The notes under the pieces: model-generated
What the model was told of the DNA's origin: nothing
Seen by the model: the letters and a program-made list of their open reading frames with translations, nothing else
Databases searched by the model: none
In this document: piece by piece, positions 16,511-32,317 of the stretch
How the letters are laid out: the number at the start of each line of letters is the position of its first letter
Position numbering within the stretch: position 1 is the stretch's first letter
Program-made: the position numbers and the translations under genes
Source of the DNA: Eubacterium limosum
Lineage (GTDB): Bacteria; Bacillota; Clostridia; Eubacteriales; Eubacteriaceae
Length of the DNA: 64,000 nucleotides
Direction of reading: 5' to 3'
NCBI RefSeq assembly: GCF_000807675.2
Contig: NZ_CP019962.1
Location: 620,001-684,000, forward strand

Positions 16511-16525
16511 TGGCACGGGACTTGC
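16511..16525 (+). promoter_or_regulatory. Sigma-54 (RpoN) promoter of MttB1
   Basis: TGGCACGGGACTTGC matches the -24/-12 consensus TGGCAC-N5-TTGC exactly. GG (16512-16513) and GC (16524-16525) are at the required 12-bp pitch. Transcription would start near 16537, leaving a ~40-base leader to the ATG at 16578. A sigma-54-dependent activator gene lies in the same island at 30884-32317. Confidence 0.9.
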
Positions 16526-16577
16526 GTTATATAAAGGCATAAGAAAAAACACATAATGATCATGGAGGGTAATGATT

Positions 16578-17987
16578 ATGACACGTAACTTTTATTCCAA
16601 TTTATTCACTCGCAAAGAGGACATTGAACTCATTCACGACAAAAGCTTATATCTGCTCGCAAATAAGGGGATTTTATTTGATAACGAAGAAGCTCGTGAT
16701 ATTTTAGCAAAAGCAGGCTGTAAAGTAGACGGCAAGATCGTTTATATCGACAAAGACCTGGTTGAAAAATGTGTGGCTCTGGTTCCAAAGACCTTTGATA
16801 TGTATTCAAGAGGTATGAAATTCACAACAGGCGTTGGGCAGGAAATGATGGTTCAGTCTTCACTGGGTCCAGTCAATGTTCTGGATAACGGCGAATACCG
16901 CAAGGCCAACGCAGAAGATTATATCAACTTCATTAAAATTCATCAGGACAGCGACATCATGCACCTGATCGACGCGGACATCGTCGTACCAAACGATATT
17001 CCGACAAAGATCCATACCGAATGGACCACCCTGGCAAACTTGAAATACTCCGATAAATTAATCGGCGGTCACAACGGTACAAAAGAACGCTGTGAAAAAT
17101 TCATCAAGCTGGTTCAGGACTTCAATGACGATCACGAACATTGCCAGACCATTACGCTGGCCACCAACTCCGCTCCATTTGCATGGAACAAGGAAATGTG
17201 TGATACCATCATCACCTACGCCAGAATGGGCCAGGCCCTGGTTATCACAGGCGTTGGCTTAGCCGGTATGACTTCCCCACCGACCCTGGCTTCCACCACT
17301 GTTCAGAACAACACCGAACTGCTGGCCGGCCTTGTGTTATCTCAGCTTGTTCAGCCGGGCGCACCGGTTATCTACCAGTTAAGCTCTCTTGAATGTGACT
17401 TAAGATACTCTCTGTGCGTATGCGGCGGACCGGAAACCTTCCAGTCCTTCTGTACCATGCGTGAACTGGCAGACTTCTACGGACTGCCCTGCCGCGCCAA
17501 CGGCTGTCTCGCGGACGCCAAACAGGATGACTATCAGAGCGGCGCTGAATCCATGCTGATCTGCTTATCCGGCTATATGGTAGAACCTGAACAGTTATAC
17601 ATGCTCGGCGGCATCTTAGATTCCTACGGCGCTTTAGGCTATGAAAAATATATGCTCGACGAACAGACTGCCCGTATTGTCAAACATCTCTTAAAGGGAA
17701 CCACCATCAATGACCAGACACTCCTGATGGACAAAATGGAAAAAGTTGAACATAAAACAAACTACATCGCCCGTACCAACAAACTGTACAAGGCAGACTA
17801 TTTCCTGCCGCCACTGTACAACCGCCAATCCATCGGCAACTGGGAAGCTGCCGGCAGTCCAACTGTACAGGAACTGGCTCGTCAGGCATGGAAAGACCGC
17901 GTAGCCAACTACGAACTACCGACCAAACTTGAAGCATTCCAGGAAAAACTGATTGCAGACTTGATTCCTGAAGAATTCATGTTCTAA
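16578..17987 (+). CDS. MttB-superfamily (non-pyrrolysine) methyltransferase 1
   Basis: The protein has 469 residues, full length for COG5598, with no internal stop, so it is a non-Pyl member. Precedents (MtgB, MtpB, MtcB, MtyB) move a methyl group from a quaternary amine to a Co(I)-corrinoid protein. Family segments include TSPPTLASTTVQNNTELLAG, PGAPVIYQ and the strongly conserved DAKQDDYQSGAESM. It is clearly more diverged than MttB2 and MttB3, which resemble each other. The start is taken as the second ATG (16578) because GGAGGG at 16565-16570 gives a 7-base spacing; the ATG at 16572 would leave only 1-2 bases. It is transcribed from a sigma-54 promoter, with an MFS gene following. Confidence 0.92.
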   Translation: MTRNFYSNLFTRKEDIELIHDKSLYLLANKGILFDNEEARDILAKAGCKVDGKIVYIDKDLVEKCVALVPKTFDMYSRGMKFTTGVGQEMMVQSSLGPVNVLDNGEYRKANAEDYINFIKIHQDSDIMHLIDADIVVPNDIPTKIHTEWTTLANLKYSDKLIGGHNGTKERCEKFIKLVQDFNDDHEHCQTITLATNSAPFAWNKEMCDTIITYARMGQALVITGVGLAGMTSPPTLASTTVQNNTELLAGLVLSQLVQPGAPVIYQLSSLECDLRYSLCVCGGPETFQSFCTMRELADFYGLPCRANGCLADAKQDDYQSGAESMLICLSGYMVEPEQLYMLGGILDSYGALGYEKYMLDEQTARIVKHLLKGTTINDQTLLMDKMEKVEHKTNYIARTNKLYKADYFLPPLYNRQSIGNWEAAGSPTVQELARQAWKDRVANYELPTKLEAFQEKLIADLIPEEFMF

Positions 17988-18018
17988 ATTCCTTAACAAT
18001 AACTAACCCATTTCATTA

Positions 18019-18071
18019 GTGCAAAATAGGGATTCGGCAATACCAGAACTTATTTTGCACTAATTTTTTAT
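18019..18071 (+). terminator. Hairpin between MttB1 and MFS1, possible attenuator
   Basis: GTGCAAAATA (18019-18028) pairs perfectly with TATTTTGCAC (18051-18060), followed by TAATTTTTT. With no separate promoter visible for the MFS gene, it could act as a partial terminator or mRNA stabiliser so that MttB1 is made in excess over the carrier. Confidence 0.65.
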
Positions 18072-18089
18072 CAAGGAGAGAGGAGACCT

Positions 18090-19370
18090 ATGATGAATAA
18101 CAGTGTTACCAACAAGGATAACTTAAGCAAATTCAGGACAATGCTGATTGTGTTCCTGGTCAGCTTCGGTTCTGCCGTTCTTTTTCAGATTATTTACTTC
18201 CGTTTTTCATTTTACGACACCATGATGACCAGCCTGAACATTAACAATGCCCAGCTCGGCGCTACCGGTGGTATCTATGGCCTGGTCGCCACGATCTGCT
18301 ATCTTCCGGGTGGGATTATCGCAGACAAAATCCGGGCAAAATACCTCGCTTCGATTGGTTTTTTCACTACCGCTGCCGTTATCTGCTGGTTTGCGACGCT
18401 TCCGTCTTACACCAGCATCATGATTATTTTTGGCCTTCTCGGTGTTACCAGTACCCTTATTTTCTGGGGTATCCGTTATAAACTGATCCGTCTGGTCAGC
18501 GATGACACCACCTATTCTCGAAATATTGGCCTGAGCTACGGGATCTACGGCGTCGGCGGTCTGCTTCTGGGCTTCGTCTCACAGCAGATTTTTAACGCTT
18601 TCGTATCCGATTCTGCGGCTGGTTTTGTGGTTGTCTTAATTGTCAGCGCTATTTTAAATGTTATTTTTGGTATCGCCACCTTGCTCTTTGTTCCAAAATT
18701 TGACGATGAAATCAAAGATGGACAGGGTTTTAACCTCAATGAATTTAAAGAGGCCATCAAGCATCCTGGCGTTTGGCTGACCACTGCGTCCATGTTCTTT
18801 GTCTACTGCGCCTACGCCGCAATGGCCTACACGACACCATACCTGACGGATGTTTTCGGCGCTTCCATGGGCATTACCTCAACCGTCGGCATGATCCGTA
18901 CTTACGGGATCGCTTTGCTTTCTGCGCCGATCATTGGCAGCATTGCTACAAAAATCAATTCGCCGGCCAAGGTATTAATTCTGATTATGGCCTTAACTGC
19001 TATCTGCTCAGCCATTCTGATTTTCCTACCGACAACGGCTGCGCTTTTAATGATCGCCATTGTTTTAATTCTGGCCATTGGTTTCTTCCTGACCGGCGCT
19101 TACGGCGTTGCCTCCTCCCAGTTTACCGAATCCGCTGTGCCAACCACTATCTTCGGCGCCGCTACGGGTATCCTGTCGGTTATCGCCTTTATTCCTGATA
19201 TGTTTGTACCGGTTATCACTGGTAACTGGCTGGATCAGCATCCAGGTATGCTTGGCTATCAGATGAGTTTTGGCTGCTTCTTGATTGCGGCTTCTGTCAT
19301 TGCAGTACTCTGCTCTGTGGCTGTTCGCATCTATGTTAAGAAAAAGAATATTCAACCTGAAAATAAATAG
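18090..19370 (+). CDS. MFS transporter, linked to MttB1
   Basis: The protein has 426 residues with twelve predicted membrane segments and a central cytoplasmic loop (~KFDDEIKDGQGFNLNEFKEAI). The MFS motif-A region is visible as LPGGIIADKIRAKYL in the loop after helix 2. It is paralogous to the MFS protein at 24534-25802, which also follows an MttB gene. Location suggests uptake of the methylamine substrate or export of the demethylated product, but direction and substrate are unknown. AAGGAGAGAGGAG precedes the start; two adjacent ATGs (18090, 18093) are possible. Confidence 0.9.
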   Translation: MMNNSVTNKDNLSKFRTMLIVFLVSFGSAVLFQIIYFRFSFYDTMMTSLNINNAQLGATGGIYGLVATICYLPGGIIADKIRAKYLASIGFFTTAAVICWFATLPSYTSIMIIFGLLGVTSTLIFWGIRYKLIRLVSDDTTYSRNIGLSYGIYGVGGLLLGFVSQQIFNAFVSDSAAGFVVVLIVSAILNVIFGIATLLFVPKFDDEIKDGQGFNLNEFKEAIKHPGVWLTTASMFFVYCAYAAMAYTTPYLTDVFGASMGITSTVGMIRTYGIALLSAPIIGSIATKINSPAKVLILIMALTAICSAILIFLPTTAALLMIAIVLILAIGFFLTGAYGVASSQFTESAVPTTIFGAATGILSVIAFIPDMFVPVITGNWLDQHPGMLGYQMSFGCFLIAASVIAVLCSVAVRIYVKKKNIQPENK

Positions 19371-19383
19371 TAAACACATGAGC

Positions 19384-19405
19384 GGGGAGGGCATTGCCTT
19401 CCCCC
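19384..19405 (+). terminator. GC-rich hairpin after MFS1
   Basis: GGGGAGGGC pairs with GCCTTCCCC around a three-base loop. There is no clear T-run on the plus strand, so termination would be weak. It lies 13 bases past the MFS stop. Confidence 0.45.
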
Positions 19406-19450
19406 AAAAATATAAAATAGCCTGTTTACCATAATTTATCCGTTAAATCA

Positions 19451-19536: not shown

Positions 19537-21156
19537 ATGAAAAAATTTAAAATCGACAAATGGGCTATTATTATTACGCTGGTCATCGTGCTGGCACTCA
19601 GTATCTACATTGTACTCCTGCCGGAACAGGCAACTTCAACGCTCAATAACCTGCGCGTTTTTACAACATCCAAAATGGGTTTTTACTTTGTTTTGATTAC
19701 CATTGGCATTTTTGCTGTAAACATCAGCCTTGCCTTCTCTAAATATGGAAATATCAAACTCGGCAAGGGCGATCCAAACTACAAAACCTTTAGCTGGATT
19801 GCCATGATCTTTTGTGCCACCATGGGCACCAGTATTCTGTACTGGGCCACATTGGAATGGGTTTATTACTATACTGGTCCGCCGATGGGGCTGGACCCGC
19901 AGAGTATGGCCGCCGCGGAGGTTGCCGTATCCTACAGTTTTTTCCACTGGGGTATTCCCGCCTGGGGGATATATGCCATTGGCACCATTCCCATTGCTTA
20001 CCGCTACTACATCCGCCAGAAAGACGGCCTTTCTCTGGCCGGCGGCTGTGAAGGGGTTACAGGCGGAAAGCCTGTCTGGAATAAAATCATCAATATCGTT
20101 TTTATTTTTGGTATTGTATCCGGCATTATCATCAGCTTTGGAACAGGGATTCCAATGCTGGTCAACAATCTGCACAACAGCGTTGGGACGCCTGATACCT
20201 TCATTATGCAGGTAATCATGGTGGTGGTCGTCACTTTTATCTTTACGCTCAGCTCATATGCGGGTCTTGACAAGGGAATGAAGTTCTGTTCAGATTCTAC
20301 AACATACCTCTTTTTTATCCTTCTGGCTTTTGTATTCATCTTCGGGAATCCTTTATTCCAGATTGAAAATACCATTAAAAGTCTCGGGCTCATGATCAAT
20401 AACTTTGTTCCGATGATCTTTGAGACAGAACCCATTGTCAAAACCGGATTTACTGCGGACTGGACGGTCTTTTACTGGGCCTGGTGGATTACACTGGCGC
20501 CTTGGATGTGGATTTTTATCGCAAAAATCTCCAAGGGCCGCACCATCAAGCAGGTCGTGCTTACCATATCCCTGGCCGGTCTCATCAGCACGGTGCTGTT
20601 CTTTGGTATTCTTTCAAACTACGGCTTGAATTTACAGCTGACCGGACAGTTTGACTTTGTCTCAATTCTGCAGAACCAGAGTCCTGAACAGGTCATCTCA
20701 TCGGCCATTATGGCCTTGCCGCTCGGCAAAATCGTGCTCTTTGTCTGGTTCATCGTCGGCCTGATGCTGCTGGTCACCACATTGGACTCCGCTGTGTTTA
20801 CACTGGCGGCAGCCTCAGTCACCAACCTGAAAACCGATGAAATCCCGCCTAAGAGTCTGAAGCTTTTCTGGGCTGTCATCATCGCTGCGATTCCGCTGTG
20901 CCTGATGTTCGCCAAGGCTCCGCTGGATTCGCTTAAATCGACCATTATCATTACGGCGCTTCCGGTTTCCATCACGCTGATTTTCTGTATCATTTCCATT
21001 TTCAAATGGCTGAAGCAGGATTACGGCGATATGACAAGGGATGAAATCACCCGCAAGGAAAAGGAAACGGTTCCTGACTTCCCTGAAAAAGAACCGCTCT
21101 CCCCGAGTTCATGTGAAAAAGCAAGTGTGATCGATGCTTTGAATGAACACGAGTGA
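19537..21156 (+). CDS. BCCT-family transporter 1, CaiT-like
   Basis: The protein has 539 residues with twelve membrane segments. The substrate-binding helix carries DWTVFYWAWW followed by IAKISKGRT, closely resembling the Trp box of E. coli CaiT (carnitine/gamma-butyrobetaine antiporter) rather than Na+-coupled BetP. Residues ~95-130 (ILYWATLEWVYYYTGPPMG) also follow the CaiT pattern. A long polar C-terminal tail (ITRKEKETVPDFPEKEP) is present. It is nearly a twin of the next gene. A precursor/product exchange role for a betaine with one of the MttB enzymes is plausible. Confidence 0.9.
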   Translation: MKKFKIDKWAIIITLVIVLALSIYIVLLPEQATSTLNNLRVFTTSKMGFYFVLITIGIFAVNISLAFSKYGNIKLGKGDPNYKTFSWIAMIFCATMGTSILYWATLEWVYYYTGPPMGLDPQSMAAAEVAVSYSFFHWGIPAWGIYAIGTIPIAYRYYIRQKDGLSLAGGCEGVTGGKPVWNKIINIVFIFGIVSGIIISFGTGIPMLVNNLHNSVGTPDTFIMQVIMVVVVTFIFTLSSYAGLDKGMKFCSDSTTYLFFILLAFVFIFGNPLFQIENTIKSLGLMINNFVPMIFETEPIVKTGFTADWTVFYWAWWITLAPWMWIFIAKISKGRTIKQVVLTISLAGLISTVLFFGILSNYGLNLQLTGQFDFVSILQNQSPEQVISSAIMALPLGKIVLFVWFIVGLMLLVTTLDSAVFTLAAASVTNLKTDEIPPKSLKLFWAVIIAAIPLCLMFAKAPLDSLKSTIIITALPVSITLIFCIISIFKWLKQDYGDMTRDEITRKEKETVPDFPEKEPLSPSSCEKASVIDALNEHE

Positions 21157-21319: not shown

Positions 21320-22933
21320 ATGAAAAAATATAAAATTGACAAATGGGCAATCATTATCACTCTGGCACTGGTTGCTGTCTTCAGTGTATATATTATACTG
21401 ATGCCTACAGCAGCGACGGAAATTCTGAATAATATTCGAATTTTCATTACAACCAAGATGGGCGTTTACTTTATTGTAATCACCATCGGTATCTTCGTCT
21501 TTAACTTTGCCGTGGCTTTTTCCAAATTTGGGAATATCAAACTTGGCAAAGATAAACCGGAGTACAAAACCTTCAGCTGGATCGCCATGATCTTCTGCGC
21601 GACGATGGGTGCTGCGCTTTTGTACTGGGCCGTTCTCGAATGGGTCTATTACTACATTACGCCGCCTGAGGGCATTACACCTGAAAGTATTGCTGCCGCG
21701 CAGGTCGCTGTATCCTACAACTTTTTCCACTGGGGCGTTCCCGCCTGGGGAATCTATGCCATCGGCACCATTCCTCTTGCCTACCGTTTTTATGTCCGCA
21801 GACAGGAGGGCCTCTCCTTGGCAAACGGCTGTGAAGGTGTTACCGGCGGCCGGCCAATCTGGAATAAAATCATCAATATTATTTTTATTTTTGGAATCGT
21901 TTCAGGTATTATTTTAACCTTCGGAACAGGGGTTCCAATGCTGGTCAACAACCTGCACACCAGTCTCGGCACACCCGATAACTTTATCATGCAGGTCGTT
22001 ATGGTGATTGCGGTCACCATATTCTTTACTGCCAGTTCCTACGCAGGGCTCGACAAAGGAATGAAATTCTGTTCAGACTCCACCATTTACCTGTGTTTCT
22101 TTTTACTGGCTTATGTCTTTATTTTCGGCGGGCCTCAATTCCAGCTGGAAAATACCATCAAGAGCTTTGGCATGATGCTCACCAACTTTGTGCCCATGAT
22201 CACTGAAACCGAGCCCATCGTCAAGACCGGTTTTACAGCGGACTGGACAGTCTTTTACTGGGCCTGGTGGATTACGCTGGCGCCTTGGATGTGGATCTTC
22301 ATTGCCAAAATCTCCAAAGGGCGCACCATCAAAGAGGTTATTCTGTGTATCACCGGCGCAGGCATGCTCAGCACGCTTTTGTTCTTTGGTGTATTATCCA
22401 ACTACGGACTCCAGCTTCAGCTTACCGGTTCCTTTAACTTTGTTGAAATCCTCCAGACCCAGAGTCCGGAACAGGTTATTTCAACGGTTATCGCGGCCTT
22501 GCCGCTCGGTAAGATCGTCTTGCTTGTCTGGTTCCTCACTGGCACCATGCTGCTCATCACGACTCTGGATTCCGCTGTCTTTACTTTGTCTGCGGCTTCT
22601 ATCAAAAACATCAAGGATGACGAAATCCCACCGAACCATCTCAAACTGTTCTGGGCCATTGTCATCTCCGCAATTCCACTGTGCCTGATGTTTGCTAAGG
22701 CGCCGCTGGATTCTCTGAAATCGGCCATTATTATATCAGCGCTCCCGGTGTCTGTAACACTCATCCTCTGTGTTGTATCTCTGTATAAATGGATGAAAAA
22801 AGACTTTGGCAGCCTGACACGGGCGCAGATTATCGAAAAGGAAAAAGACCCCACACCAGATTTTGAACCCGGCGATTTTACCTTACCCGAAAAGGGTAAA
22901 AAACCAAAAGAAGAGGAAACTCTGACCGAATAA
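21320..22933 (+). CDS. BCCT-family transporter 2, CaiT-like (tandem paralogue)
   Basis: The protein has 537 residues and aligns along its whole length with the preceding gene, sharing long identical runs such as KTGFTADWTVFYWAWW and LAPWMWIFIAKISKGRTI. Differences cluster at the N-terminal ~60 residues and the polar tail (KEKDPTPDFEPGDFTLPEKGKK). It therefore arose by tandem duplication including its promoter. AAAGGAGG precedes the ATG at 21320. The copies may differ in substrate or in induction. Confidence 0.9.
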   Translation: MKKYKIDKWAIIITLALVAVFSVYIILMPTAATEILNNIRIFITTKMGVYFIVITIGIFVFNFAVAFSKFGNIKLGKDKPEYKTFSWIAMIFCATMGAALLYWAVLEWVYYYITPPEGITPESIAAAQVAVSYNFFHWGVPAWGIYAIGTIPLAYRFYVRRQEGLSLANGCEGVTGGRPIWNKIINIIFIFGIVSGIILTFGTGVPMLVNNLHTSLGTPDNFIMQVVMVIAVTIFFTASSYAGLDKGMKFCSDSTIYLCFFLLAYVFIFGGPQFQLENTIKSFGMMLTNFVPMITETEPIVKTGFTADWTVFYWAWWITLAPWMWIFIAKISKGRTIKEVILCITGAGMLSTLLFFGVLSNYGLQLQLTGSFNFVEILQTQSPEQVISTVIAALPLGKIVLLVWFLTGTMLLITTLDSAVFTLSAASIKNIKDDEIPPNHLKLFWAIVISAIPLCLMFAKAPLDSLKSAIIISALPVSVTLILCVVSLYKWMKKDFGSLTRAQIIEKEKDPTPDFEPGDFTLPEKGKKPKEEETLTE

Positions 22934-22988
22934 AAAAGGGACTGCTGTCCGTTGATTAAAATCATAGTACAGCAGTCCCTTTTTATTT
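22932..22988. terminator. Bidirectional terminator between convergent BCCT genes
   Basis: GGGACTGCTGT (22938-22948) pairs with ACAGCAGTCCC (22969-22979), with A-run and T-run flanks on both sides. It separates rightward BCCT 2 from leftward BCCT 3. Confidence 0.9.
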
Positions 22989-24491
22989 CGTTTTCCTTAT
23001 TAAAACCACGGCGCTGGCAATAACGCCGATGATCAGAAACATCGCTGCCAGACCGCCGATATTGGACAGCATTTTTATTCCTGTCAGCCCGTCACCGATC
23101 CCCATCATAATCCATGTAACGATACCGACAATGACGCCCCACACAACCTTGAGGTATGCCGGACTGTCCACTGTTTCGCTTTTTGACTGGCGGCAGCACA
23201 GATTGGTAATGGCAACCGTCGAAGAATCCGCCGCAGTCACAAAGGAGATCAATACTGCCGCAAGATAAACCGGGACCATGAGCTCCGCCATTGGCAGATT
23301 TTTGAAAAGCTGGTAAATAACATTCTCATAGCCCAGCTGGTAGGCCTCCACTAATCCACATCCCGGCGTGTTAAACAGAATATTTACCGTTGCGCCGGAG
23401 ATAATCATAAACCACAAGACACTGAACAGTGCCGTAAGAAGCAGATTCATTTTTATGATCTCCCGGATAGTTCTTCCATAGCTGATCTGCCCGAGAAACA
23501 CAGCCGTGATGGGCGTCCAGGCCATCCAGTTACCAAAATAGTACATGGTCCAGTTCTTAGTCCAGGGATCATGCTCCAAGACACCCGTAAAGAGTGCGCC
23601 GGAGAAAAAAGTATCTAAAAACTCCCCTGCTCCTTCAATCCCAAAGGATACAATAAAGAGCGTCCCGCCAAAGCACAGGATAAACAAAAGAATAAAAATG
23701 TATATTCCAACATTGATATTTGATAAAAGTGTAATCCCTTTTTTTATACCTGAAATGGCCGAGATAACAGAAATCCCGCCTACAAGGACAATAATCACAA
23801 GCCAGACCGCCGGGTTAGACGGCAAACCAAAAAGCCTGCCCAAACCACTGTTAATGCTTAAGGTTCCAATGCCAAGGGACGCTGAAAGACCTGTCACCAG
23901 TGAAAAAACACAGACCACATCAATGAGTCCGTTTATCCTTCCCCGGCGCTTTTCAGAAATCAATGGCGCCATCATCGACCCAATGGAAAAAGAAGCCTTC
24001 ATATTATAGCAGCCATAGGCGAACATCACCGCCAGCAGGGTATACATGGCGTAGGGCAGCACCGTCCAGTGCCTGTAAATTGCCGCCATGGCAAAACGAG
24101 CCGACTCTGCGGTCATTGCAGTGATACCGCTTGATTCTGGAGGGTACAGAATATGCTGTACCGGTTCAGCCGCTCCCCAGAATACAATCCCTGCTGCAAT
24201 GGTCGTCCCGAGCGTTACTGTGAACCAGTTCCAGTTCGTAAGCTTTGGTTTAGCCGTGGGACCGCCAATTCTAACCTTGCCCAGCGGCGAAAAATAAATC
24301 CATACGCAGACGCCAAGGGAAACCACAGCTGTCAGCAGAAACGCCCAGCCGAAATAATTAAGAATCCAGTCATAAAAAGCTGTGGCCAGAGCGGAAAAAC
24401 CCGCCCCGTCACAAAGATTCCAAAGGATACATCCAATAAACAATATGGCCGGCGGCAAAAAAACACCCCACCGAATTTGTCTGTATTTCAT
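22983..24491 (-). CDS. BCCT-family transporter 3, MttB2-linked
   Basis: The protein has 502 residues with twelve membrane segments. It belongs to the BCCT family but to a different branch from the CaiT-like pair: the core helix reads WTMYYFGNWMAWTP followed by LGQISYGRT, and the glycine-rich stretch is GTTIAAGIVFWGAAEPVQHI, closer to the BetP/OpuD pattern. It is the last gene of the leftward unit MttB2-MFS-BCCT, 42 bp after the MFS gene. Betaine uptake for MttB2 is the natural inference. Confidence 0.9.
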   Translation of the reverse strand: MKYRQIRWGVFLPPAILFIGCILWNLCDGAGFSALATAFYDWILNYFGWAFLLTAVVSLGVCVWIYFSPLGKVRIGGPTAKPKLTNWNWFTVTLGTTIAAGIVFWGAAEPVQHILYPPESSGITAMTAESARFAMAAIYRHWTVLPYAMYTLLAVMFAYGCYNMKASFSIGSMMAPLISEKRRGRINGLIDVVCVFSLVTGLSASLGIGTLSINSGLGRLFGLPSNPAVWLVIIVLVGGISVISAISGIKKGITLLSNINVGIYIFILLFILCFGGTLFIVSFGIEGAGEFLDTFFSGALFTGVLEHDPWTKNWTMYYFGNWMAWTPITAVFLGQISYGRTIREIIKMNLLLTALFSVLWFMIISGATVNILFNTPGCGLVEAYQLGYENVIYQLFKNLPMAELMVPVYLAAVLISFVTAADSSTVAITNLCCRQSKSETVDSPAYLKVVWGVIVGIVTWIMMGIGDGLTGIKMLSNIGGLAAMFLIIGVIASAVVLIRKTK

Positions 24492-24533
24492 ATGAGCGCC
24501 TCTATTCTAAGCATTGAAAGGTCTTTTTATTGC

Positions 24534-25802
24534 TTACTCCACTTCCGCTGTCTGTTCTTTACTTTTCCGAATTTGTCTGAACAAAACACCAGCCGCTACT
24601 AACCCAATGGCGGTCACCACAATCATGTACACAAAGATATGCTGATATCCGCCAATTCCAGGATATTTATCCATCCAGTTACCGATCAGGCTATAAATAT
24701 AAGCTTCTGGAATGAAGCCGACCAGAGAGACAAAGCCCATTGCTGTACCGCTGTAGGACAGCGGAATTTTCAGTTCATCAATGGCTGCAAAGTAGATCCC
24801 TCTGAGCATGAACATTGAAAGTCCTGTTGCCAGCATAAAAGCGATAAATACGCCAAGATACTGAGGATTATTCGGAATGATCATATACGCAGCATAGCAG
24901 ATAACCGGGATAACGGAGGTGAAAAAGATCACCTTAATGTTTGAACCGATCTTATCCGCAATAAAACCACTGATGAGACCGCCTACAATCGCCATTCCAT
25001 AAATACGCAGAATTCCCAGAAATGCGGCTGTCGAGGCTGACAGTCCAAAGAATTCTGTTAAATAGGGGGTTAAATAAGAGTAAGACGCATAAATGGAACA
25101 GACAGAAAAGACAACAATGGATAAAAGCCAGAGCTTCGGCATTTTAACAACCTTGACAAGATCTTTGACAGACGCTCCTGTTTTTTCTTCCGGGTTATCC
25201 GTCGGTTTATTATCATTCAGGCCAAACCATGCAAAAACACCTCCGATGATGGCTAAAATCGCATAGCCTATAATAACCCAGCGCAGCGCCAGATAGTTGG
25301 CCCCGGTGGTGTTAAAGATGAACAGTATTACCATCCCATAGAGCACTGGCATAATACCCGTTCCGCTTTCGCGCATTCCAAACAGTCTTCCCTGCTCGCT
25401 GCTGTCGCCCAGCTGTCTTGTGGCCTTCAGCATAGCAGCCCAGAAGGTCAATGATGAAAGAACACCGTACATAACATAAATAAAAACAAGCACAGGGTAA
25501 GACGGATACGTTGACAATAGCAGTCCAAGAGCGCCTGTTCCCACCAGTGAGAAGGCAATCAGCTTTCTGGCAGACAGGCGGTCAGCCAGGTAACCGCCAG
25601 GAAAGTAACCAATCATTGAGATGAAACCAAAAATACTCATCAGCAGACCAAGCTGAGAATTTGAAATATTCATGGCCTCCAGAATCACGTCATAATAATT
25701 ATAGCTCAAATAGGGAAGTTCATAAATTGTACTTCCCGCAAGAATCAATGCAAAAAGTGCCACATACTTTTTAACTTTCGAGTTTTTAGCAGTGCTATCC
25801 AT
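24534..25802 (-). CDS. MFS transporter, linked to MttB2
   Basis: The protein has 422 residues with twelve membrane segments and MFS motif A as FPGGYLADRLSARKL. It is paralogous to the MFS protein at 18090-19370 in length, topology and sequence, and likewise directly follows an MttB gene (17 bp gap). Pairing of this MFS type with MttB homologues in two separate operons suggests a specific carrier for the methylated amine or its product. Tail residues ~410-422 are polar. Confidence 0.9.
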   Translation of the reverse strand: MDSTAKNSKVKKYVALFALILAGSTIYELPYLSYNYYDVILEAMNISNSQLGLLMSIFGFISMIGYFPGGYLADRLSARKLIAFSLVGTGALGLLLSTYPSYPVLVFIYVMYGVLSSLTFWAAMLKATRQLGDSSEQGRLFGMRESGTGIMPVLYGMVILFIFNTTGANYLALRWVIIGYAILAIIGGVFAWFGLNDNKPTDNPEEKTGASVKDLVKVVKMPKLWLLSIVVFSVCSIYASYSYLTPYLTEFFGLSASTAAFLGILRIYGMAIVGGLISGFIADKIGSNIKVIFFTSVIPVICYAAYMIIPNNPQYLGVFIAFMLATGLSMFMLRGIYFAAIDELKIPLSYSGTAMGFVSLVGFIPEAYIYSLIGNWMDKYPGIGGYQHIFVYMIVVTAIGLVAAGVLFRQIRKSKEQTAEVE

Positions 25803-25819
25803 TTTTTTCTCCTAATTTT

Positions 25820-27256
25820 CTAAATATTTTCCCGATATTCTTCAGGAATATACGGGGCTACAATATCGTTCTGCTCTTTTGTGATTTCCGGCGGCTGATA
25901 AGAGGCAATTCTTTCCTTTACTACATTTTCAGCCACTTCTTTTAAGGAGTGCCGTCCTTCGTTCTGCCATACGTTAGGGTCTTGCTTGTTAAAGAATTTT
26001 GGCATAACAAATTCTTCGCGGTACATCTTTGGCGTTCTGCCCTTTAAGTAAGAGCCGCGCGGGCCGATTTTCCTGATCAAATCAAAGCAGCCTTTTTCTT
26101 CGGAGGTATCAATTCCAGCGGCCATTCGTCTTGCGTAGAGCAAGGTGTCTTCATCCAGCATATATTTTTCGTAGCTGAAGATATTAAAGGAGCCCATAAT
26201 ACCGCAGGCGTGAAGGATCAGGTCAACGCCGGATTCATAGGTCGCGTTTAACACCAGCATAGATTCCGCGCCAGTCTGGTAGTCCAGATCCTTTGCGTCG
26301 CTCAGGCTTCCGCCGCTTCGGCATGGCATTTTATAATAGTCCGCCATGGCTACAGCCGCATAGACCATTAAAGCGGTCTCCGGTGATCCGATGCTCAAAA
26401 GAATACTTCTCAAATCCGTAGAGGCTGAGGTATTTCCGTAAATGACCGGCACTCCCGGACAGGCAAGCTGTGCCAGCGTTAAGCCCGCCAGTATTTCTGC
26501 GTTGGTCAGGCTTACAGTTGCAAAAACAGATGGCGGTGAGGTTAAAGCCGGCATCGCGCAGGGTGTAAACCAGATTGGCTGCTTTTCAGCACAGAAGGCC
26601 AGCATCTTTTCAATAGGTGCAAAATCATAGCAAAGCGGCGATAAGGAATTGACACAGAAGGAATTAACATAGCGCTCCTGTTCCTCTACTCCTTCAAAGG
26701 CCTTGATGATTTTAAGGCTTTTTACCGTTGTGTCAAAAAGCTCCTCATGCGGTACTGAAAAGGTATCCGGGTCAAAGCAGGCGATCTGCGGGCTGTATTT
26801 TAAAAGCATGCCAACATTCGAAAAAATTTTCTGTTCTTTTGTAAAATTAGTAGTATCCGCGAAATAGTCCATGTAATTATAATCTGTTGCCGGACTGGTA
26901 GACGCCAGTTTGAAAATATTGATGGTATCCTCATTGCGCATACGGCGGATGGAATTATGGTCCTCGACATATACTGCACCACAGGCAGGCATATTAACGC
27001 GGCTGCCATCGCCAATGGTGACAGACCCCTTTGTCGAATACAGCTCAAAGGTCTCTGGACACTGTGCTACGGCCTGATTCACCAAATCTTCGCTTATAAA
27101 AACAATGTCCTCCTCAATCTCTGCACCATGCTCTTTGAATAATTCTAAAGCTTTTGGATGCTCAAAACGTACGCCGACCTCTTTTAAAATTCTTAGTGAC
27201 TCTTCGTGGATGCGCTCGATATTTTCTTTCGAAACATAATGACTAAATTTCTTCAA
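25820..27256 (-). CDS. MttB-superfamily (non-pyrrolysine) methyltransferase 2
   Basis: The protein has 478 residues if translation begins at TTG 27256, giving (M)KKFSHYVSKEN, which matches MttB3 (MKKYSHYVSKET). GAGGAGAG lies 6-13 bases upstream. The in-frame ATG at 27280 has no ribosome-binding site and would absorb it, so the TTG is preferred. Conserved segments are LTSPPSVFATVSLTNAEILA, CPGVPVIYGNTSAS, SDAKDLDYQTGAESM and NKQDPNVWQNEG. There is no internal amber codon. It should demethylate a quaternary amine onto a corrinoid protein not encoded here. It is the first gene of an operon with MFS and BCCT genes, and its promoter sits between two TetR-type operators. Confidence 0.92.
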   Translation of the reverse strand: MKKFSHYVSKENIERIHEESLRILKEVGVRFEHPKALELFKEHGAEIEEDIVFISEDLVNQAVAQCPETFELYSTKGSVTIGDGSRVNMPACGAVYVEDHNSIRRMRNEDTINIFKLASTSPATDYNYMDYFADTTNFTKEQKIFSNVGMLLKYSPQIACFDPDTFSVPHEELFDTTVKSLKIIKAFEGVEEQERYVNSFCVNSLSPLCYDFAPIEKMLAFCAEKQPIWFTPCAMPALTSPPSVFATVSLTNAEILAGLTLAQLACPGVPVIYGNTSASTDLRSILLSIGSPETALMVYAAVAMADYYKMPCRSGGSLSDAKDLDYQTGAESMLVLNATYESGVDLILHACGIMGSFNIFSYEKYMLDEDTLLYARRMAAGIDTSEEKGCFDLIRKIGPRGSYLKGRTPKMYREEFVMPKFFNKQDPNVWQNEGRHSLKEVAENVVKERIASYQPPEITKEQNDIVAPYIPEEYRENI

Positions 27257-27286
27257 CGTTCTCTCTCCTCGTTTTTTCATTCTAAA

Positions 27287-27304
27287 AATTTAAACCGGTT
27301 AATT
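27287..27304 (-). promoter_or_regulatory. TetR-type operator, downstream copy (MttB2)
   Basis: AATTTAAACCGGTTAATT, a near-perfect palindrome, lies just after the predicted start point of the MttB2 promoter. It is related to the operators at 27351, 28857 and 28921. Confidence 0.7.
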
Positions 27305-27316
27305 TTTTGTAACTGT

Positions 27317-27345
27317 AGGATATCATGATTTTACGATTGTGTCAA
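27317..27345 (-). promoter_or_regulatory. Sigma-A promoter of the MttB2 operon
   Basis: Minus-strand TTGACA (27345-27340), a 17-bp spacer, TATCCT (27322-27317). It is bracketed by operators on both sides, with operator centres about 64 bp apart, the same as at MttB3. Confidence 0.8.
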
Positions 27346-27350
27346 CACTT

Positions 27351-27367
27351 TTTTAAACGGGTTAATT
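27351..27367 (-). promoter_or_regulatory. TetR-type operator, upstream copy (MttB2/TetR1)
   Basis: TTTTAAACGGGTTAATT lies 6 bp upstream of the MttB2 -35 box and immediately before a weak rightward promoter candidate for TetR1 (TTGTAA-18-TAGAAT, 27374-27403). One bound dimer could therefore affect both directions. Confidence 0.7.
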
Positions 27368-27450
27368 TTTATGTTGTAAAAGTTTTGAGAAATGTGATAG
27401 AATAAGCACAGCAACACAATTATTGATCAATATCATGAAAAGAGGAAACA

Positions 27451-28101
27451 ATGGAATATAAAAAAAGCAAGGAAACCCGCGATAAGATTTTCAACCTTGC
27501 CAAAAAATCATTTTATGAAATTGGATTTAAAAAAACAACGATCCGTAACATTGCAAAAGAAGCCGGCATCAACCACGCATTGGCTTATTACCATTTCAAT
27601 GGGAAATACGACATTGCCCACCATATTGTTGACGAATTTCACCAGAAGGCAGAGGTAGCCTTTAACAAACTGACGGCCAATATGTCGTTTGAAGATCCGC
27701 TTCTTCGCCTTTTAGCCCTCTACCGCTTCGGGCTGCGGGAAATTTATGATAACGAATGGGATTTCAACTTCTATGTCGAGGTTTATCAGCAATCCTACTA
27801 TGACTCTGATCTTGTGGAAAACTGCGTTAAAATTCTGGATTTTTATCATTATCCCATCGACCGCAAAAAAATTGATATCGCGGTTCTGTCCACCTCCTCC
27901 TCATGGGGCCAACTGTATACCAACGAGGATGTTCCCTACAGAGACCACTTCACTCACCGGGATATCATGGATTCCATCGATATCATGCGATGGTCTTATC
28001 TGGGTTTTGAACCAGACTTTATCATTGATAAAATAAAGCAGGCTGAGGAACTGCTCGCATCTCTGCCCATTATGAATATCCGCATTTTAGAAAAACAGTG
28101 A
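27451..28101 (+). CDS. TetR-family regulator 1
   Basis: The protein has 216 residues. The N-terminal HTH (~10-55) reads KSFYEIGFKKTTIRNIAKEAG with recognition part HALAYYHF. The ligand-binding C-terminal domain is aromatic-rich (EWDFNFYVEVYQQSYYDSD), unusual enough to suggest a specific effector pocket, perhaps for a quaternary amine. It is divergent from the MttB2 operon, with two palindromic operators between them, and paralogous to TetR2, which converges on it through a shared terminator. A likely repressor of MttB2, MttB3 or both. Confidence 0.9.
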   Translation: MEYKKSKETRDKIFNLAKKSFYEIGFKKTTIRNIAKEAGINHALAYYHFNGKYDIAHHIVDEFHQKAEVAFNKLTANMSFEDPLLRLLALYRFGLREIYDNEWDFNFYVEVYQQSYYDSDLVENCVKILDFYHYPIDRKKIDIAVLSTSSSWGQLYTNEDVPYRDHFTHRDIMDSIDIMRWSYLGFEPDFIIDKIKQAEELLASLPIMNIRILEKQ

Positions 28102-28107
28102 ACAAAA

Positions 28108-28142
28108 ACATCATCTCAGCCACAGCTGAGATGATGTTTTTT
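28108..28142. terminator. Bidirectional terminator between the two TetR genes
   Basis: ACATCATCTCAGC (28108-28120) pairs perfectly with GCTGAGATGATGT (28125-28137), with an A-run before and TTTTTT after. Confidence 0.92.
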
Positions 28143-28785
28143 AATTCATCTTTCCCAATAACGGGATTCCCTGTATCGGTATAGTTTCCAGAAGCTGCTT
28201 TGCCTCCTTTATTTTTTCAAGGACTTCCTCTCTGCTGAAGCCCAGATAGCACCATCTTAAAATATCTGTTGTGTCCCGTATCTCATCCAAATCCACAGGC
28301 GAGGACAGCAGCTTCGCATTAAAATAGAGCTGGCTCCAGACGCTGGTTGTCGAGAGCACCGCGATCTCAGCCATTTTTTTATCTACAGACATCCCATGCT
28401 CCTGGCACACCAGCATACAGTACTCAACCTGTGATTTATCACAGTATGGTTTTTCATAAGCGTGAAGGTAAAGCTCCAAATCCCTTGGATTCTGATAGAT
28501 TTCTCTCAAAACTGCCCGAACCAGCAGCAAAGAAAATAAAAACAAATCCTCCTCCGCGTCAATATATTTTTTAAATACCGTTGATGCCCTGTAAAAATGT
28601 TCGTCAATAATGCGGTGCGCCAACTCATATTTACTGTCAAAATAATAATAGATCAACGCCTGATTTGTTCCCAGAGCGTCTGCAATTGAACGCATGGTGG
28701 TCTTTTTAAATCCCACCTCATAAAAAGATTGTTTGACAGTACTTAAAATCTTTTCTTTTGTTTCCTTACCTTTTTTGTACTCCAT
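28141..28785 (-). CDS. TetR-family regulator 2
   Basis: The protein has 214 residues from the ATG at 28785 (MEYKKGKETKEK), matching TetR1 (MEYKKSKETRDK). GAGG lies 6-7 bases upstream. A TTG four codons further up is less likely. The HTH reads QSFYEVGFKKTTMRSIADALG, and the C-terminal domain parallels TetR1 (for example LSTTSVWSQLYFN and ILRWCYLGF). It diverges from MttB3 and shares with it an intergenic region holding two AATTAAACCGTTTAA-type operators. TATAAT on the minus strand at 28826-28821 is a likely -10. Confidence 0.9.
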   Translation of the reverse strand: MEYKKGKETKEKILSTVKQSFYEVGFKKTTMRSIADALGTNQALIYYYFDSKYELAHRIIDEHFYRASTVFKKYIDAEEDLFLFSLLLVRAVLREIYQNPRDLELYLHAYEKPYCDKSQVEYCMLVCQEHGMSVDKKMAEIAVLSTTSVWSQLYFNAKLLSSPVDLDEIRDTTDILRWCYLGFSREEVLEKIKEAKQLLETIPIQGIPLLGKMN

Positions 28786-28856
28786 AAAATGCCTCAATCA
28801 AATAATTTTTGTGTGTTTCTATTATAACATATTCTGACTAAAAAATCTTCAAAAAT

Positions 28857-28873
28857 AATTAAACCGTTTAAAT
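28857..28873 (+). promoter_or_regulatory. TetR-type operator, upstream copy (MttB3/TetR2)
   Basis: AATTAAACCGTTTAAAT lies 7 bp before the MttB3 -35 box and also close to the TetR2 promoter. The core TTAAAC-C-GTTTAA is a perfect palindrome around a single central base. Confidence 0.8.
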
Positions 28874-28880
28874 TTTATTC

Positions 28881-28909
28881 TTGACATACTATAATTATGG
28901 CTGTATAAT
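28881..28909 (+). promoter_or_regulatory. Perfect consensus sigma-A promoter of MttB3
   Basis: TTGACA, a 17-bp spacer, TATAAT. Such a strong promoter needs repression, which fits the operators on both sides (centres 64 bp apart). Confidence 0.88.
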
Positions 28910-28920
28910 ACACTCATGAA

Positions 28921-28937
28921 AATTAAACCGTTTAATT
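28921..28937 (+). promoter_or_regulatory. TetR-type operator, downstream copy (MttB3)
   Basis: AATTAAACCGTTTAATT is a perfect 17-bp palindrome around a central C, covering about +5 to +21 of the transcript. Confidence 0.82.
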
Positions 28938-28960
28938 TAAATTTTTAAAAGGAGTCTTTT

Positions 28961-30400
28961 ATGAAAAAGTATAGCCACTATGTCTCAAAAGAAACCATTG
29001 AAAGTATTCACGAGCAGTCTCTGCGTGTATTGAAAGAAATCGGCGTACGCTTTGAAAATCAGCGTGCTCTGGACCTTCTGGCAAAAAACGGCGTCAAACT
29101 TGACGGCTGCGTTGCATATTTTGATGAGGAAACCGTCGTAAACGCCATGAAGCTTGCTCCTTCAGTTTTTGAATTGACCTCAAACACCAAGGGCAATTTA
29201 ACCATCGGTAATGAAAGCCGTATTACCATGCCAAGCGGCGGCCCGGTCTATATTACCGAAAATGGTGTTATCCGTAAAACCGTTAACCAGGACATCATCA
29301 ATTTTCTTAAATTAACTTCGACCAGCGATGAAATCGGTTATCAATACATTGATTTTCTCCCTAACGACGACCATTTAAACGAAGATCAAAAAATTTACGC
29401 CTCCGAAGCGCTGCTGCTGAAATACGGAAAACAGCCGGCCTGTATTGATCCCGACACCTTTTTAATGGACGAGGGCAAAATTTACAACGCCACGTTAAAA
29501 AGCATTGACCTCATCCGTAAATTTGAAGGCATTGAAGACAGTGAAAAACACGTCAACTCCTTCTGTGTCAATTCTATTTCTCCGCTTTGCTATGATTTTG
29601 CGCCTCTTGAAAAAATGTTTGCCTTCTGTGAACAAAACCAGCCGCTCTGGTTCTCCCCCTGTGCAATGCCCGGCATGACCGCTCCGCCGTCGGTTATGGC
29701 AACGCTCGTAATGACCAACGCTGAAATTCTGGCCATTAACGCACTGGCTCAGATGATTAAACCTGGCGTACCGGTTATTTACGGCAACACCTCCGCCTCT
29801 ACCAATCTGCGTACCTTACTGCTAAGCTTTGGCGCTCCGGAAACCATGCTCATGTGCTACGCCACTGCAGCCATGTCCGACTTCTATGATGTTCCCTGCC
29901 GTACCGGCGGTGCACAATCTGACGCCAAAGACACCGACTATCAGTCCGGCGCGGAATCCATGTTCATGATCCAGTCCTGTATGGAATGTGGTACTGATTT
30001 AATCTACCATGCGAGCGGCATGATGGGCAGCATGAATCTTTACAGCTATGAAAAATTTATTCTGGACGAAGAATGTATTGCCTTTGCAAGAAGAATGGTT
30101 CAGGGAATTGATCCTTCTGAAGAAAAAGTCTGCTTCGACGCATTGAAAAAGGCTGGTCCTCGAGGTTCCTTTATCACCGGAAGAACTCCCAAAATGTACC
30201 GCGAAGAGTTCTATCTGCCTAAATATTTTAACAAACAGGATGTTAATGTCTGGCAAAACGAAGGCTCACACTCTGTTTTAGAGGTTGCCCGGAAAGCGGT
30301 TGACGAAAGAATCAAATCCTACGTACAGCCAGATATTACCAAGGAACAGCAGGAATTATTGAACCCATACCTTCCGCCCGAATACAGAGAAAGCATTTAG
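28961..30400 (+). CDS. MttB-superfamily (non-pyrrolysine) methyltransferase 3
   Basis: The protein has 479 residues without internal stop. It is closely related to MttB2 along its whole length (shared CYDFAPLEKMFAFC/CYDFAPIEKMLAFC, VPVIYGNTSAS, DAKDTDYQSGAESM, NKQDVNVWQNEG) and less to MttB1. The expected reaction is methyl transfer from a quaternary or tertiary amine to a corrinoid protein. The gene is monocistronic; AAAAGGAG precedes the ATG at 28961. The promoter is perfect sigma-A flanked by two operators, and TetR2 is divergent. Substrate unknown. Confidence 0.92.
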   Translation: MKKYSHYVSKETIESIHEQSLRVLKEIGVRFENQRALDLLAKNGVKLDGCVAYFDEETVVNAMKLAPSVFELTSNTKGNLTIGNESRITMPSGGPVYITENGVIRKTVNQDIINFLKLTSTSDEIGYQYIDFLPNDDHLNEDQKIYASEALLLKYGKQPACIDPDTFLMDEGKIYNATLKSIDLIRKFEGIEDSEKHVNSFCVNSISPLCYDFAPLEKMFAFCEQNQPLWFSPCAMPGMTAPPSVMATLVMTNAEILAINALAQMIKPGVPVIYGNTSASTNLRTLLLSFGAPETMLMCYATAAMSDFYDVPCRTGGAQSDAKDTDYQSGAESMFMIQSCMECGTDLIYHASGMMGSMNLYSYEKFILDEECIAFARRMVQGIDPSEEKVCFDALKKAGPRGSFITGRTPKMYREEFYLPKYFNKQDVNVWQNEGSHSVLEVARKAVDERIKSYVQPDITKEQQELLNPYLPPEYRESI

Positions 30401-30422
30401 TATAAAAACATCAAACCCTTTT

Positions 30423-30469
30423 ATGGAGAATTGAGAGCGTCCATTGATCTGCACGCCTCAATTCTCCAT
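30423..30469. repeat. Perfect inverted repeat after MttB3
   Basis: ATGGAGAATTGAG (30423-30435) pairs with CTCAATTCTCCAT (30457-30469). There is no T-run, so it is not a standard terminator. The arm resembles the arms of the palindromic element at 45766-45884, so it may be a short relative of that element. Confidence 0.7.
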
Positions 30470-30480
30470 TGTCCCAGGCA

Positions 30481-30801
30481 TCACAACTTTATCGGATTTT
30501 CTGTCACCGATTCAGAAAATAATGAGGTTTGGAGAAGCACATAAGCGCATTCCAGGCTTATCTTATCCTTGAAATATCCACATGCTTCCATCATTTTTCT
30601 GTAATATTCCAGCCCGTCTCTTTTTTCTAAAAGTCCGTTATATAAACTTTCCACAGCGCTAAAAATTATTTCCAGAAATCCAATGACAAATGGCGTGGTA
30701 TCTCCCATATTATTTTCAATCATTTCTTCGAAAAGTATACGTTTTCTTTTGTTTGTATGGGTTGATTTTTGTGCTTCAGCAAAAAATAGAGCACCTTTTA
30801 T
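30481..30801 (-). pseudogene. Remnant of a TetR-like regulator gene
   Basis: The frame is open from 30801 to the stop at 30481 (about 106 codons) but lacks a DNA-binding N-terminus. It begins IKGALFFAEAQKST, which resembles the segment just after the HTH in TetR proteins (usually Y-F-x-N-K-x-A-L-F), then FVIGFLEIIFSAVESLYNGLLEKRDGLEYY as an effector-domain-like helix. A stop codon precedes the first codon, and upstream the reading continues only in another frame. An ATG-started 80-residue version (from 30723) is possible, but no good ribosome-binding site is seen. I read it as a decayed third regulator of the island. Confidence 0.55.
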
Positions 30802-30835
30802 TTATAATAATTTTTCACACATTCCCTTGTTTTTA

Positions 30836-30875
30836 CATAAAAACAGACGGAGCCTTTTATCCAGACACTCCGTCT
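30836..30875 (-). terminator. Terminator after the sigma-54 activator
   Basis: Minus-strand AGACGGAG (30875-30868) pairs with CTCCGTCT (30852-30845), followed by GTTTTTATG. Confidence 0.8.
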
Positions 30876-30883
30876 CAAGTCGT

Positions 30884-32317
30884 CTATTTTTTCATCAAAT
30901 CCTTACAGTATTCACTCACCAGCCGAAAGGCCTTAGAATGGCTGATGTCCAGATCCTCAGCAACCTTTTTCATATTTCTGTATTTTTTATAGGACTCACG
31001 GATCAGCTGTTTCCCAACGCTTTCCAGAATATAATCATAACTTTCCTTATAGGTCTCCTCTACCATGGCCGTACCCTCAATCATAAATTCCGGTAAATCC
31101 TTCGGCGCAACCGGTCCGCTGGTGGACAGAAGAACCGTCCGCTCCATGAGGTTTTTCAGCTGCCGAATATTGCCGGGCCAGTCGTAGGCGATGAGGATCG
31201 CCATGGACTTTGGCGAAAAATCAATATCTTTTCCATATTTTTTATTATATTTTTTCAGAAAATAGGCTGTCAAAGGAAGAATATCTTCCCGGCGCTCCCT
31301 GAGTGCAGGAATCTCAATATTGATGGTATTGATCCGCCAGTACAGATCTGAACGGAACTTCTTTTCCGAGACCAGTTTTTCGAGGTTCGCGTTGGTGGCG
31401 GCCACAATACGGATATCTACATGTTTCATTTCACTGCCGCCCACCTGAATAAAGCGCTTATTTTCCAGAACGTCCAGCAGTTTGGCCTGAAGTCCCGGCG
31501 CCATCTCGCCGATTTCATCAAGGAACAGCGTGCCGCCGTCTGCCAGTTCCACAAGGCCTACTTTTCCTTTGGCGCTTGCCCCTGTAAAGGCATGGGGCGC
31601 ATAACCGAATAATTCCGATTCCAGAAGGTTTTCCGGTATCGTGGCACAGTTAATGGCCCAGAACGGCTTTGAGGCCCTCAGGCTTGTTTTGTGCACGTAT
31701 TCGGCAATCAGTGTCTTGCCTACCCCAGACTCTCCGGTTAAAAGGATTGGGACGTCCGATTCCGAAACCTTTTTAATGGTCAGCAGAATCTTGCAGAAAA
31801 TATAGCTCTGTCCCACAATCTCATCGTCATCTTTGCCATCCTCAGCCTCTATTGTATGGGTTTTGCTCTTGCTTCCGGCCTTGCTCTTCTCACCGTCCAT
31901 CTTTCGCCAGGTCATGTCATATTTTTCAGGGATTTCATTGGCAATGGTCACGACCATTTCGATCTCGCCGTCCTTATCAAAAATGGGGGTGAGCACCGTT
32001 GAAACACTTTTTCCAATGAGAAGATAGTTCTGCTCTGCAAAGACAGTCCGTTTTTCCTTAACACATTTTTCCAGAGCCGTCGGCGTCCACTTCCCCTTTC
32101 TGAAAGAATAGTTATTCTGACCGATCATCTCTTTAGGGTCTACCCCATAATGGCGGATGGAGTTGGGATTAACGTAAATAATCTTCCCCTCTTTGTCCAT
32201 CACATACACATCCGATGAACAGTTTTCCAGAATTTTAATATAGACGTCCACCGGAATGGAACGGAGATATTCCAGGTACTCCTCATCAATTCCAAATTCT
32301 TTGTTTATTTTTCCCAT
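30884..32317 (-). CDS. Sigma-54-dependent transcriptional activator (PAS, AAA+, Fis-HTH)
   Basis: The protein has 477 residues from the ATG at 32317 (MGKINKEF), chosen because AGAGGTG lies 5 bases upstream; an upstream TTG lacks such support. A PAS domain (~20-125, ILENCSSDVYVMDKEGKIIY) probably senses a small molecule. The AAA+ domain has Walker A GESGVGKT, the sigma-54 contact loop HAFTGA in place of GAFTGA, Walker B GGTLFLDEIGEM and the R-finger region. The C-terminus is a Fis-type HTH (NMKKVAEDLDISHSKAFRLV). The only sigma-54 promoter found in the window is that of MttB1, so this is its likely activator. Confidence 0.93.
   Translation of the reverse strand: MGKINKEFGIDEEYLEYLRSIPVDVYIKILENCSSDVYVMDKEGKIIYVNPNSIRHYGVDPKEMIGQNNYSFRKGKWTPTALEKCVKEKRTVFAEQNYLLIGKSVSTVLTPIFDKDGEIEMVVTIANEIPEKYDMTWRKMDGEKSKAGSKSKTHTIEAEDGKDDDEIVGQSYIFCKILLTIKKVSESDVPILLTGESGVGKTLIAEYVHKTSLRASKPFWAINCATIPENLLESELFGYAPHAFTGASAKGKVGLVELADGGTLFLDEIGEMAPGLQAKLLDVLENKRFIQVGGSEMKHVDIRIVAATNANLEKLVSEKKFRSDLYWRINTINIEIPALRERREDILPLTAYFLKKYNKKYGKDIDFSPKSMAILIAYDWPGNIRQLKNLMERTVLLSTSGPVAPKDLPEFMIEGTAMVEETYKESYDYILESVGKQLIRESYKKYRNMKKVAEDLDISHSKAFRLVSEYCKDLMKK

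Follow-up and report, generated by a model that had tools for sequence, protein, structure and literature searches.

The question raised by positions 16511 to 32317 of this 64,000-nucleotide stretch of the Eubacterium limosum genome (the window) is whether three neighboring genes for MttB-family methyltransferases, mttB1, mttB2 and mttB3, form one locus, as the initial annotation proposed, or more than one. The reading that we favor with moderate confidence, based on gene order, promoters and conservation, is that two separately controlled methylated-amine loci are present, one nested inside the other. Locus A is mttB1-MFS1-BCCT1-BCCT2 (MFS, major facilitator superfamily; BCCT, betaine/choline/carnitine transporter), with a GG/GC -24/-12 sigma-54 promoter and a convergent sigma-54 activator gene. 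Locus B is a nested block, BCCT3-MFS2-mttB2-tetR1-tetR2-mttB3, flanked by the mttB1 operon and the activator gene, and in it each sigma-A promoter, that of mttB2 and that of mttB3, is bracketed by two TTAAMCSGKTTAA palindromes.

The span examined runs from the sigma-54 site TGGCAC-N5-TTGC (16511) to 32317, the probable start codon (ATG) of the activator gene. The gene order is sigma-54 site, mttB1, MFS1, BCCT1 and BCCT2 on the plus strand; BCCT3, MFS2 and mttB2 on the minus strand; tetR1 (plus); tetR2 (minus); mttB3 (plus); and the activator gene (minus).

16511..16525, plus strand: sigma-54-type promoter TGGCACGGGACTTGC of the mttB1 operon, conserved in 7/7 aligned genomes
16572..17987, plus strand: mttB1, MttB-family methyltransferase (PF06253)
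18090..19370, plus strand: MFS1 carrier (PF07690)
19537..21156, plus strand: BCCT1 carrier (PF02028), nearest solved relative DddT
21320..22933, plus strand: BCCT2 carrier (PF02028), 72.6% identical to BCCT1
22888..30864, no strand: nested block, with 99 bases in its place in G023; present in G024
22983..24491, minus strand: BCCT3 carrier (PF02028)
24534..25802, minus strand: MFS2 carrier (PF07690)
25820..27256, minus strand: mttB2, MttB-family methyltransferase, proposed TTG start (PF06253)
27290..27302, no strand: predicted TetR operator, palindrome at the mttB2 promoter
27317..27345, minus strand: sigma-A promoter of mttB2, TTGACA-17-TATCCT
27353..27365, no strand: predicted TetR operator, palindrome at the mttB2 promoter
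27451..28101, plus strand: tetR1 (PF00440)
28141..28785, minus strand: tetR2 (PF00440), 45% identical to TetR1
28859..28871, no strand: predicted TetR operator, palindrome at the mttB3 promoter
28881..28909, plus strand: sigma-A promoter of mttB3, TTGACA-17-TATAAT
28923..28935, no strand: predicted TetR operator, palindrome at the mttB3 promoter
28961..30400, plus strand: mttB3, MttB-family methyltransferase (PF06253)
30481..30723, minus strand: open frame of 80 amino acids, perhaps the 'TetR remnant' of the initial annotation, no Pfam match at E<=1
30884..32317, minus strand: PAS-AAA+ sigma-54 activator (PF00158)

The nested block in related genomes

The proposal of one locus did not hold when gene order was compared among relatives. 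The mttB2/mttB3 block was present in one of the three near-complete congeners (G024) and absent from the other two, G023 and G025, in which the mttB1 operon and the activator gene adjoin each other. Two segments of the window, 13001-22887 and 30865-32420, align to G023, where 99 bases separate them; in G025 the gap at the block position is 68 bases. The block of G024 has the same gene order and is 91.6% identical to that of the window, compared with 89.4% and 90.2% for the flanks and 91.7% for the activator gene. A recent transfer of the block between E. limosum and G024 was considered and set aside as the less likely reading: the block identity resembles that of the flanks and the activator gene, which agrees better with shared ancestry and a loss in G023. 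Since G023 lacks the block and yet is closer to the window in the flanks (94.0% and 93.2%) than G024 is, the simplest reading, a provisional one, would be that the block was present in the common ancestor and lost in G023. In G024, a MATE-type carrier gene that is not in the window lies between mttB3 and the activator gene (L033:17868-19184).

A recent inverted duplication giving mttB2-tetR1 and tetR2-mttB3 was also rejected. MttB2 pairs with the mttB2 product of G005, a genome of another genus, and MttB3 with the mttB3 product of G005 (bootstrap 100 each), and therefore the split between MttB2 and MttB3 predates these genera.

The mttB1-activator junction is empty in G023, G025 and G006, holds the TetR cassette in E. 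limosum and G024, and holds an MtyB-like sigma-54 cassette in G001. The G001 unit consists of an activator gene and mttB-MFS-BCCT; its mttB product is 75.2% identical to MtyB/M494, and a unit located elsewhere in G006 and G004 matches its four genes at 81-88% identity.

Predicted operators and the sigma-54 promoter

The two tetR-mttB gaps of the window hold the palindromes TTAAACCGGTTAA, TTAAACGGGTTAA and, twice, TTAAACCGTTTAA, with pair spacings of 63 and 64 bp. Of the five exact TTAAACSGKTTAA sites in the genome, four are in these two gaps, and a search of 22 other stretches of the same genome (330,721 bases) for TTAAMCSGKTTAA with at most one mismatch returned one site. Three exact sites occupy the gap between mttB2 and mttB3 in G005, whose genes run MFS2, mttB2 / mttB3, tetR1, with tetR1 located after mttB3 and not divergent from it. 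In G045, which belongs to another family, the order is MFS2, mttB2 / tetR1, and the gap holds two sites, one with a mismatch. None of 200 shuffles of the G005 locus, and none of 200 of the G045 locus, had as many sites. A sigma-A promoter was located between two sites in all seven promoters examined from four genomes (TTGACA in six and TTGACT in one, spacing 16 or 17), although the seven are not all independent, the window and G024 being 91% alike. Both mttB2 and mttB3 have a divergent TetR gene and promoter palindromes that are kept in relatives. The recurrence of this arrangement in a second genus and a second family is the basis for predicting that the palindromes are operators, to which TetR1 and TetR2 would bind.

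TetR1 has relatives at E<=1e-40 in 4 of the 67 genomes of the order, its own included, and a contig scan of the named genomes for the TetR pair found a single distant locus (L031), which lacks a motif site and was set aside. A third, similar unit exists in the same genome (mttB at 1181345), where a TetR gene (38% identical to TetR1) is divergent from an MFS-mttB operon, with palindromes in the gap. Unlike in the window, the gap before this TetR gene (L019; G000:C1:1184270) holds three palindromes of another sequence, TTATACWGTATAA. A further TetR-type palindrome, with one mismatch, was observed at G000:C1:1737522-1737534, where it precedes the mttB gene 1736059-1737507 by 15 bp.

The sigma-54 site of mttB1 was kept in all seven aligned genomes (its own, G023-G026, G001 and G006), even where the surrounding sequence has diverged. 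Exact TGGCAC-N5-TTGC sites number 24 in the genome, whereas the reversed control gives 5. Six of the 24 precede a same-strand mttB start by at most 100 bp, and four others (827030, 1738466, 4272603 and 4341284) are found a short way upstream of a co-directional gene located ahead of an mttB; the site at 2591859, where the reading frame is ambiguous, was left out of the promoters upstream of a carrier gene. Eighteen of the 21 PF00158 matches are no more than 3 kb from an mttB gene; this zone makes up 5.5% of the genome. The activator gene follows the mttB1 operon directly, in convergent orientation, in G023, G025 and G006, and this gene order suggests that the activator acts on the mttB1 promoter. 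The canonical loop of sigma-54 activators is GAFTGA. In the window activator it reads HAFTGA, with the first Gly replaced; among the 11 activators of the genome listed from a pattern search, this position is H in 4 and Y in 1, and the loop is GAFTGA in 5 and GSFTGA in 1. The gene rpoN is annotated, according to the available part of PMC5651825.

Several observations weigh against these assignments. The palindrome motif was derived from the four window sites, so these sites are no test of it and its rarity elsewhere alone counts. This rarity is confined to exact sites, as TTAAACSGKTTAA with one mismatch matches the genome 44 times, compared with 25 for the reversed control. With two mismatches the window holds 14 matches where 6.1 are expected, a number reached by 3 of 100 shuffles, and the wider form TTAAMCSGKTTAA has an additional exact match within an open frame of the window, at 63510. 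When one mismatch is allowed in the sigma-54 site, its frequency in the window is no higher than expected (2 versus 2.7). In G001 a different activator (53% identical) adjoins the mttB1 operon and the orthologue of the window activator lies beyond it, and in G026 (80% complete) mttB1 and the activator are on different contigs. The link between activator and mttB1 is therefore not universal among the relatives, and the activator of E. limosum could act on other promoters.

The loci of MtcB (L-carnitine) and MtyB (gamma-butyrobetaine) of E. limosum resemble locus A in having a non-pyrrolysine MttB gene, an MFS neighbor and a sigma-54 activator but no adjacent corrinoid gene; their sigma-54 sites precede the mttB start by 43 and 74 bp, and that of mttB1 by 61 bp. 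They differ in that the activator gene is divergent there, whereas here it is convergent and separated by the block; mttB2 and mttB3 carry predicted TetR operators in place of the sigma-54 site; and MttB1-3 are 27-34% identical to both enzymes. The sigma-54 promoter at mttB1 and the predicted TetR operators at mttB2 and mttB3 agree with the earlier proposal that several enzymes are separately regulated.

These data also bear on a single functional island, in which the three enzymes would act on one substrate or its successive products under joint control by all regulators. The genes are adjacent, the block stays together in E. limosum and G024, and MttB2 and MttB3 are 57.5% identical and have the same palindrome at both promoters. 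However, MttB1 shares 32% identity with the other two and falls in another clade, its gene is preceded by a sigma-54 promoter, the 360-bp region upstream of this gene lacks the palindrome, and the mttB1 locus occurs without the block in G023, G025 and G006. We consider such an island distinctly unlikely, while joint control of MttB2 and MttB3 alone is quite possible.

Enzymes, substrates and the corrinoid partner

MttB1-3 are further members of the known non-pyrrolysine MttB family (PF06253 / COG5598), and methyl transfer is predicted for them. Their PF06253 matches are full-length (positions 24-489, 31-492 and 32-491 of 500), none has an internal stop, and the codons at the pyrrolysine position are CTC (Leu), CTG (Leu) and CAA (Gln), so that the three full-length, amber-free enzymes of the initial annotation were all recovered, as were its three BCCT (PF02028) and two MFS (PF07690) carriers. 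Gln is found at this position in 2 of the 42 MttB homologues that a PF06253 profile search detected in the genome. The same number is given for strain ATCC 8486 in the available part of PMC12155760. Three of the 42 are inside the window, and such clustering is ordinary for this genome, as another four MttB genes lie within 7.4 kb at 4263849-4271195. The start of mttB2 is probably the TTG at 27256, behind GAGGAG, instead of the ATG at 27280. From the four regulators annotated, two TetR_N proteins and one PAS/AAA+ sigma-54 activator were verified, whereas the TetR remnant was not: a tblastn search of TetR1 and TetR2 against 16001-33000 returned the two intact genes and otherwise chance-level matches (E 0.21 or worse), and an 87-residue frame near 30481-30723 had no match below E 0.68 among the compared loci, itself aside. 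Among the ten proteins compared with NCBIfam, none attained a listed curated cut-off. A short ferredoxin-like reading frame, named by eye, was noted upstream of the activator gene (window ~32510-32690, minus strand).

In order to place the enzymes, reference proteins were located in the genome. The published mtcB primers match one place among the 23 stretches of the genome searched, which assigns MtcB to 1024275-1025735, and the outer primer pair spans 3637 bases, the product size published in the available part of PMC10223405. The closest relative of MtcB (52.6% identical) is encoded at 494202-495671, with an MFS neighbor and a divergent activator gene. We take it to be MtyB because its identity and gene context fit what the available part of PMC8604678 reports for that enzyme (53% identical to MtcB, MFS neighbor, divergent activator). 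Likewise, 227644-229071 is taken as MthB by its EamA, pterin-binding, B12-binding and APH-kinase neighbors (context from the available part of PMC12155760). The homologues at 809324-810781 and 1756904-1758361 are 83.1% identical to each other, in contrast to PMC8604678, where, in the part available, MtcB and MtyB (53%) are called the most similar MttB pair of the genome.

A tree of 48 rows was used, from which M4026 with its very long branch was excluded, though it had been part of an earlier 49-row tree. MttB2 and MttB3 fall in a clade of 18 rows (100/100), MttB1 in one of 11 rows (100/96), MtcB and MtyB in a separate one of 11 rows (100/99), and MtgB and MthB in one of 5 rows (98/94), the MthB branch being long and its own position unsure. 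No grouping of MttB1, MttB2 or MttB3 with MtcB, MtyB, MthB or MtgB was found in this tree; nor do all three fall with one of these four enzymes, the result that the initial annotation would have counted against itself, as MttB1 and MttB2/3 are in different clades. The known proline betaine enzyme, MtpB, belongs to the 42 and is not among the placed enzymes, while MtcB, MtyB and MthB are placed elsewhere, so that one of MttB1-3 could be MtpB and the locus partly characterized. There is no positive sign of this, and by count the window holds 3 of the 39 remaining genes; we give it only a slight chance.

The phosphocholine enzyme MthB is of the same superfamily and organism, but it is 26-28% identical to MttB1-3, and its locus has its own corrinoid protein, a pterin-type methyltransferase (MthA), an EamA carrier and a kinase. 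Such corrinoid and pterin genes are not in the window, where no match to a corrinoid (B12-binding_2) or pterin-binding protein was found, and therefore the corrinoid partner is encoded elsewhere. By analogy, it is likely to be MtqC, which the available part of PMC8604678 describes as common to MtpB, MtcB and MtyB.

The nearest solved structures for MttB1-3 are 2qne and 9yce, the former being MtgB, the glycine betaine enzyme of Desulfitobacterium hafniense (PDB 2QNE), which is 29-33% identical to the three and in a separate clade. Five pocket residues of MtgB were named by docking, without a ligand-bound structure, in the available part of PMC6855144. MttB2 keeps four of these five modeled residues (N199, R309, H345 and F353), MttB3 keeps three (N199, R309 and H345), and MttB1 keeps one (R309), with Tyr at 353. 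This weakly hints at carboxylated amines as substrates of MttB2 and MttB3 and at something different for MttB1. As stated initially, a specific compound is not readable from the sequence, and the pocket residues would give class-level hints alone. The homologue at G000:C1:761479-762915 is the sole one of the 42 with all five modeled residues (Y N R H F), which makes it a lead for the glycine betaine enzyme of E. limosum.

Among the carriers, the nearest solved relative of BCCT3 is a choline transporter (214 bits), and that of BCCT1 is DddT (361 bits, compared with 207 bits for the next kind). DddT carries dimethylsulfoniopropionate (DMSP). Together with the pocket, in which MttB1 and its relatives in G001, G006 and G026 keep just Arg309 of the five modeled residues and have Tyr for the aromatic Phe353, the carrier would fit a non-classical betaine as the substrate of MttB1, for example a sulfonium compound or a non-carboxylated amine. 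However, the pocket was derived from docking, and the carrier in the G001 locus shares only 34% identity with BCCT1. We regard a substrate of this kind as unlikely.

Proposed mechanism and significance

In the two-locus arrangement that we favor, locus A would be transcribed by sigma-54 RNA polymerase once the PAS-AAA+ activator senses an inducer. In locus B (mttB2 with MFS2 and BCCT3; mttB3), TetR1 and TetR2 would keep transcription off by occupying the paired palindromes around each sigma-A promoter, until a ligand, probably the substrate, lifts the repression. The carriers would import the methylated compound, each MttB would transfer a methyl group to the Co(I) of the corrinoid protein encoded elsewhere, and MtqA would then pass the methyl group to tetrahydrofolate (THF) for acetogenesis. 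The sequence basis of this scheme is the genes, the promoters, the palindromes and their conservation, the gene order of the relatives and the lack of a corrinoid protein in the window; from these we infer TetR binding, the link of activator and promoter, enzyme activity, the partner protein, transport and substrate class.

A literature search gave, among the matches listed, no description of this locus, these palindromes or the association of sigma-54 with mttB. RocR-like regulators beside mtyB and mtcB are noted in the available part of PMC8604678, and therefore regulation of that type is partly known. The new part would be the TetR-operated form and the nesting, both predictions. More tentatively, and with less than even confidence, we propose that the mttB1-activator junction is a site where whole substrate cassettes (MttB, carriers and their own regulator) insert repeatedly, and that these acetogens broaden their methylated-amine diversity by adding cassettes with their own regulation to a single, shared corrinoid/THF core; most sigma-54 activators of the genome (18/21 domain matches) would be devoted to it.

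Trimethylamine precursors in the gut are consumed by E. limosum and its relatives, yet a substrate is named for only 4 of the 42 E. limosum MttB enzymes (MtpB, MtcB, MtyB and MthB) in the parts of the literature covered. The short predicted operator offers a handle, as a compound that releases TetR1 or TetR2 would indicate the substrate of MttB2 or MttB3, and the sigma-54 activator offers another, as its inducer should indicate the substrate of MttB1. Since sigma-54 activators stand beside mttB genes throughout the genome, many other MttB enzymes could be approached in this way.

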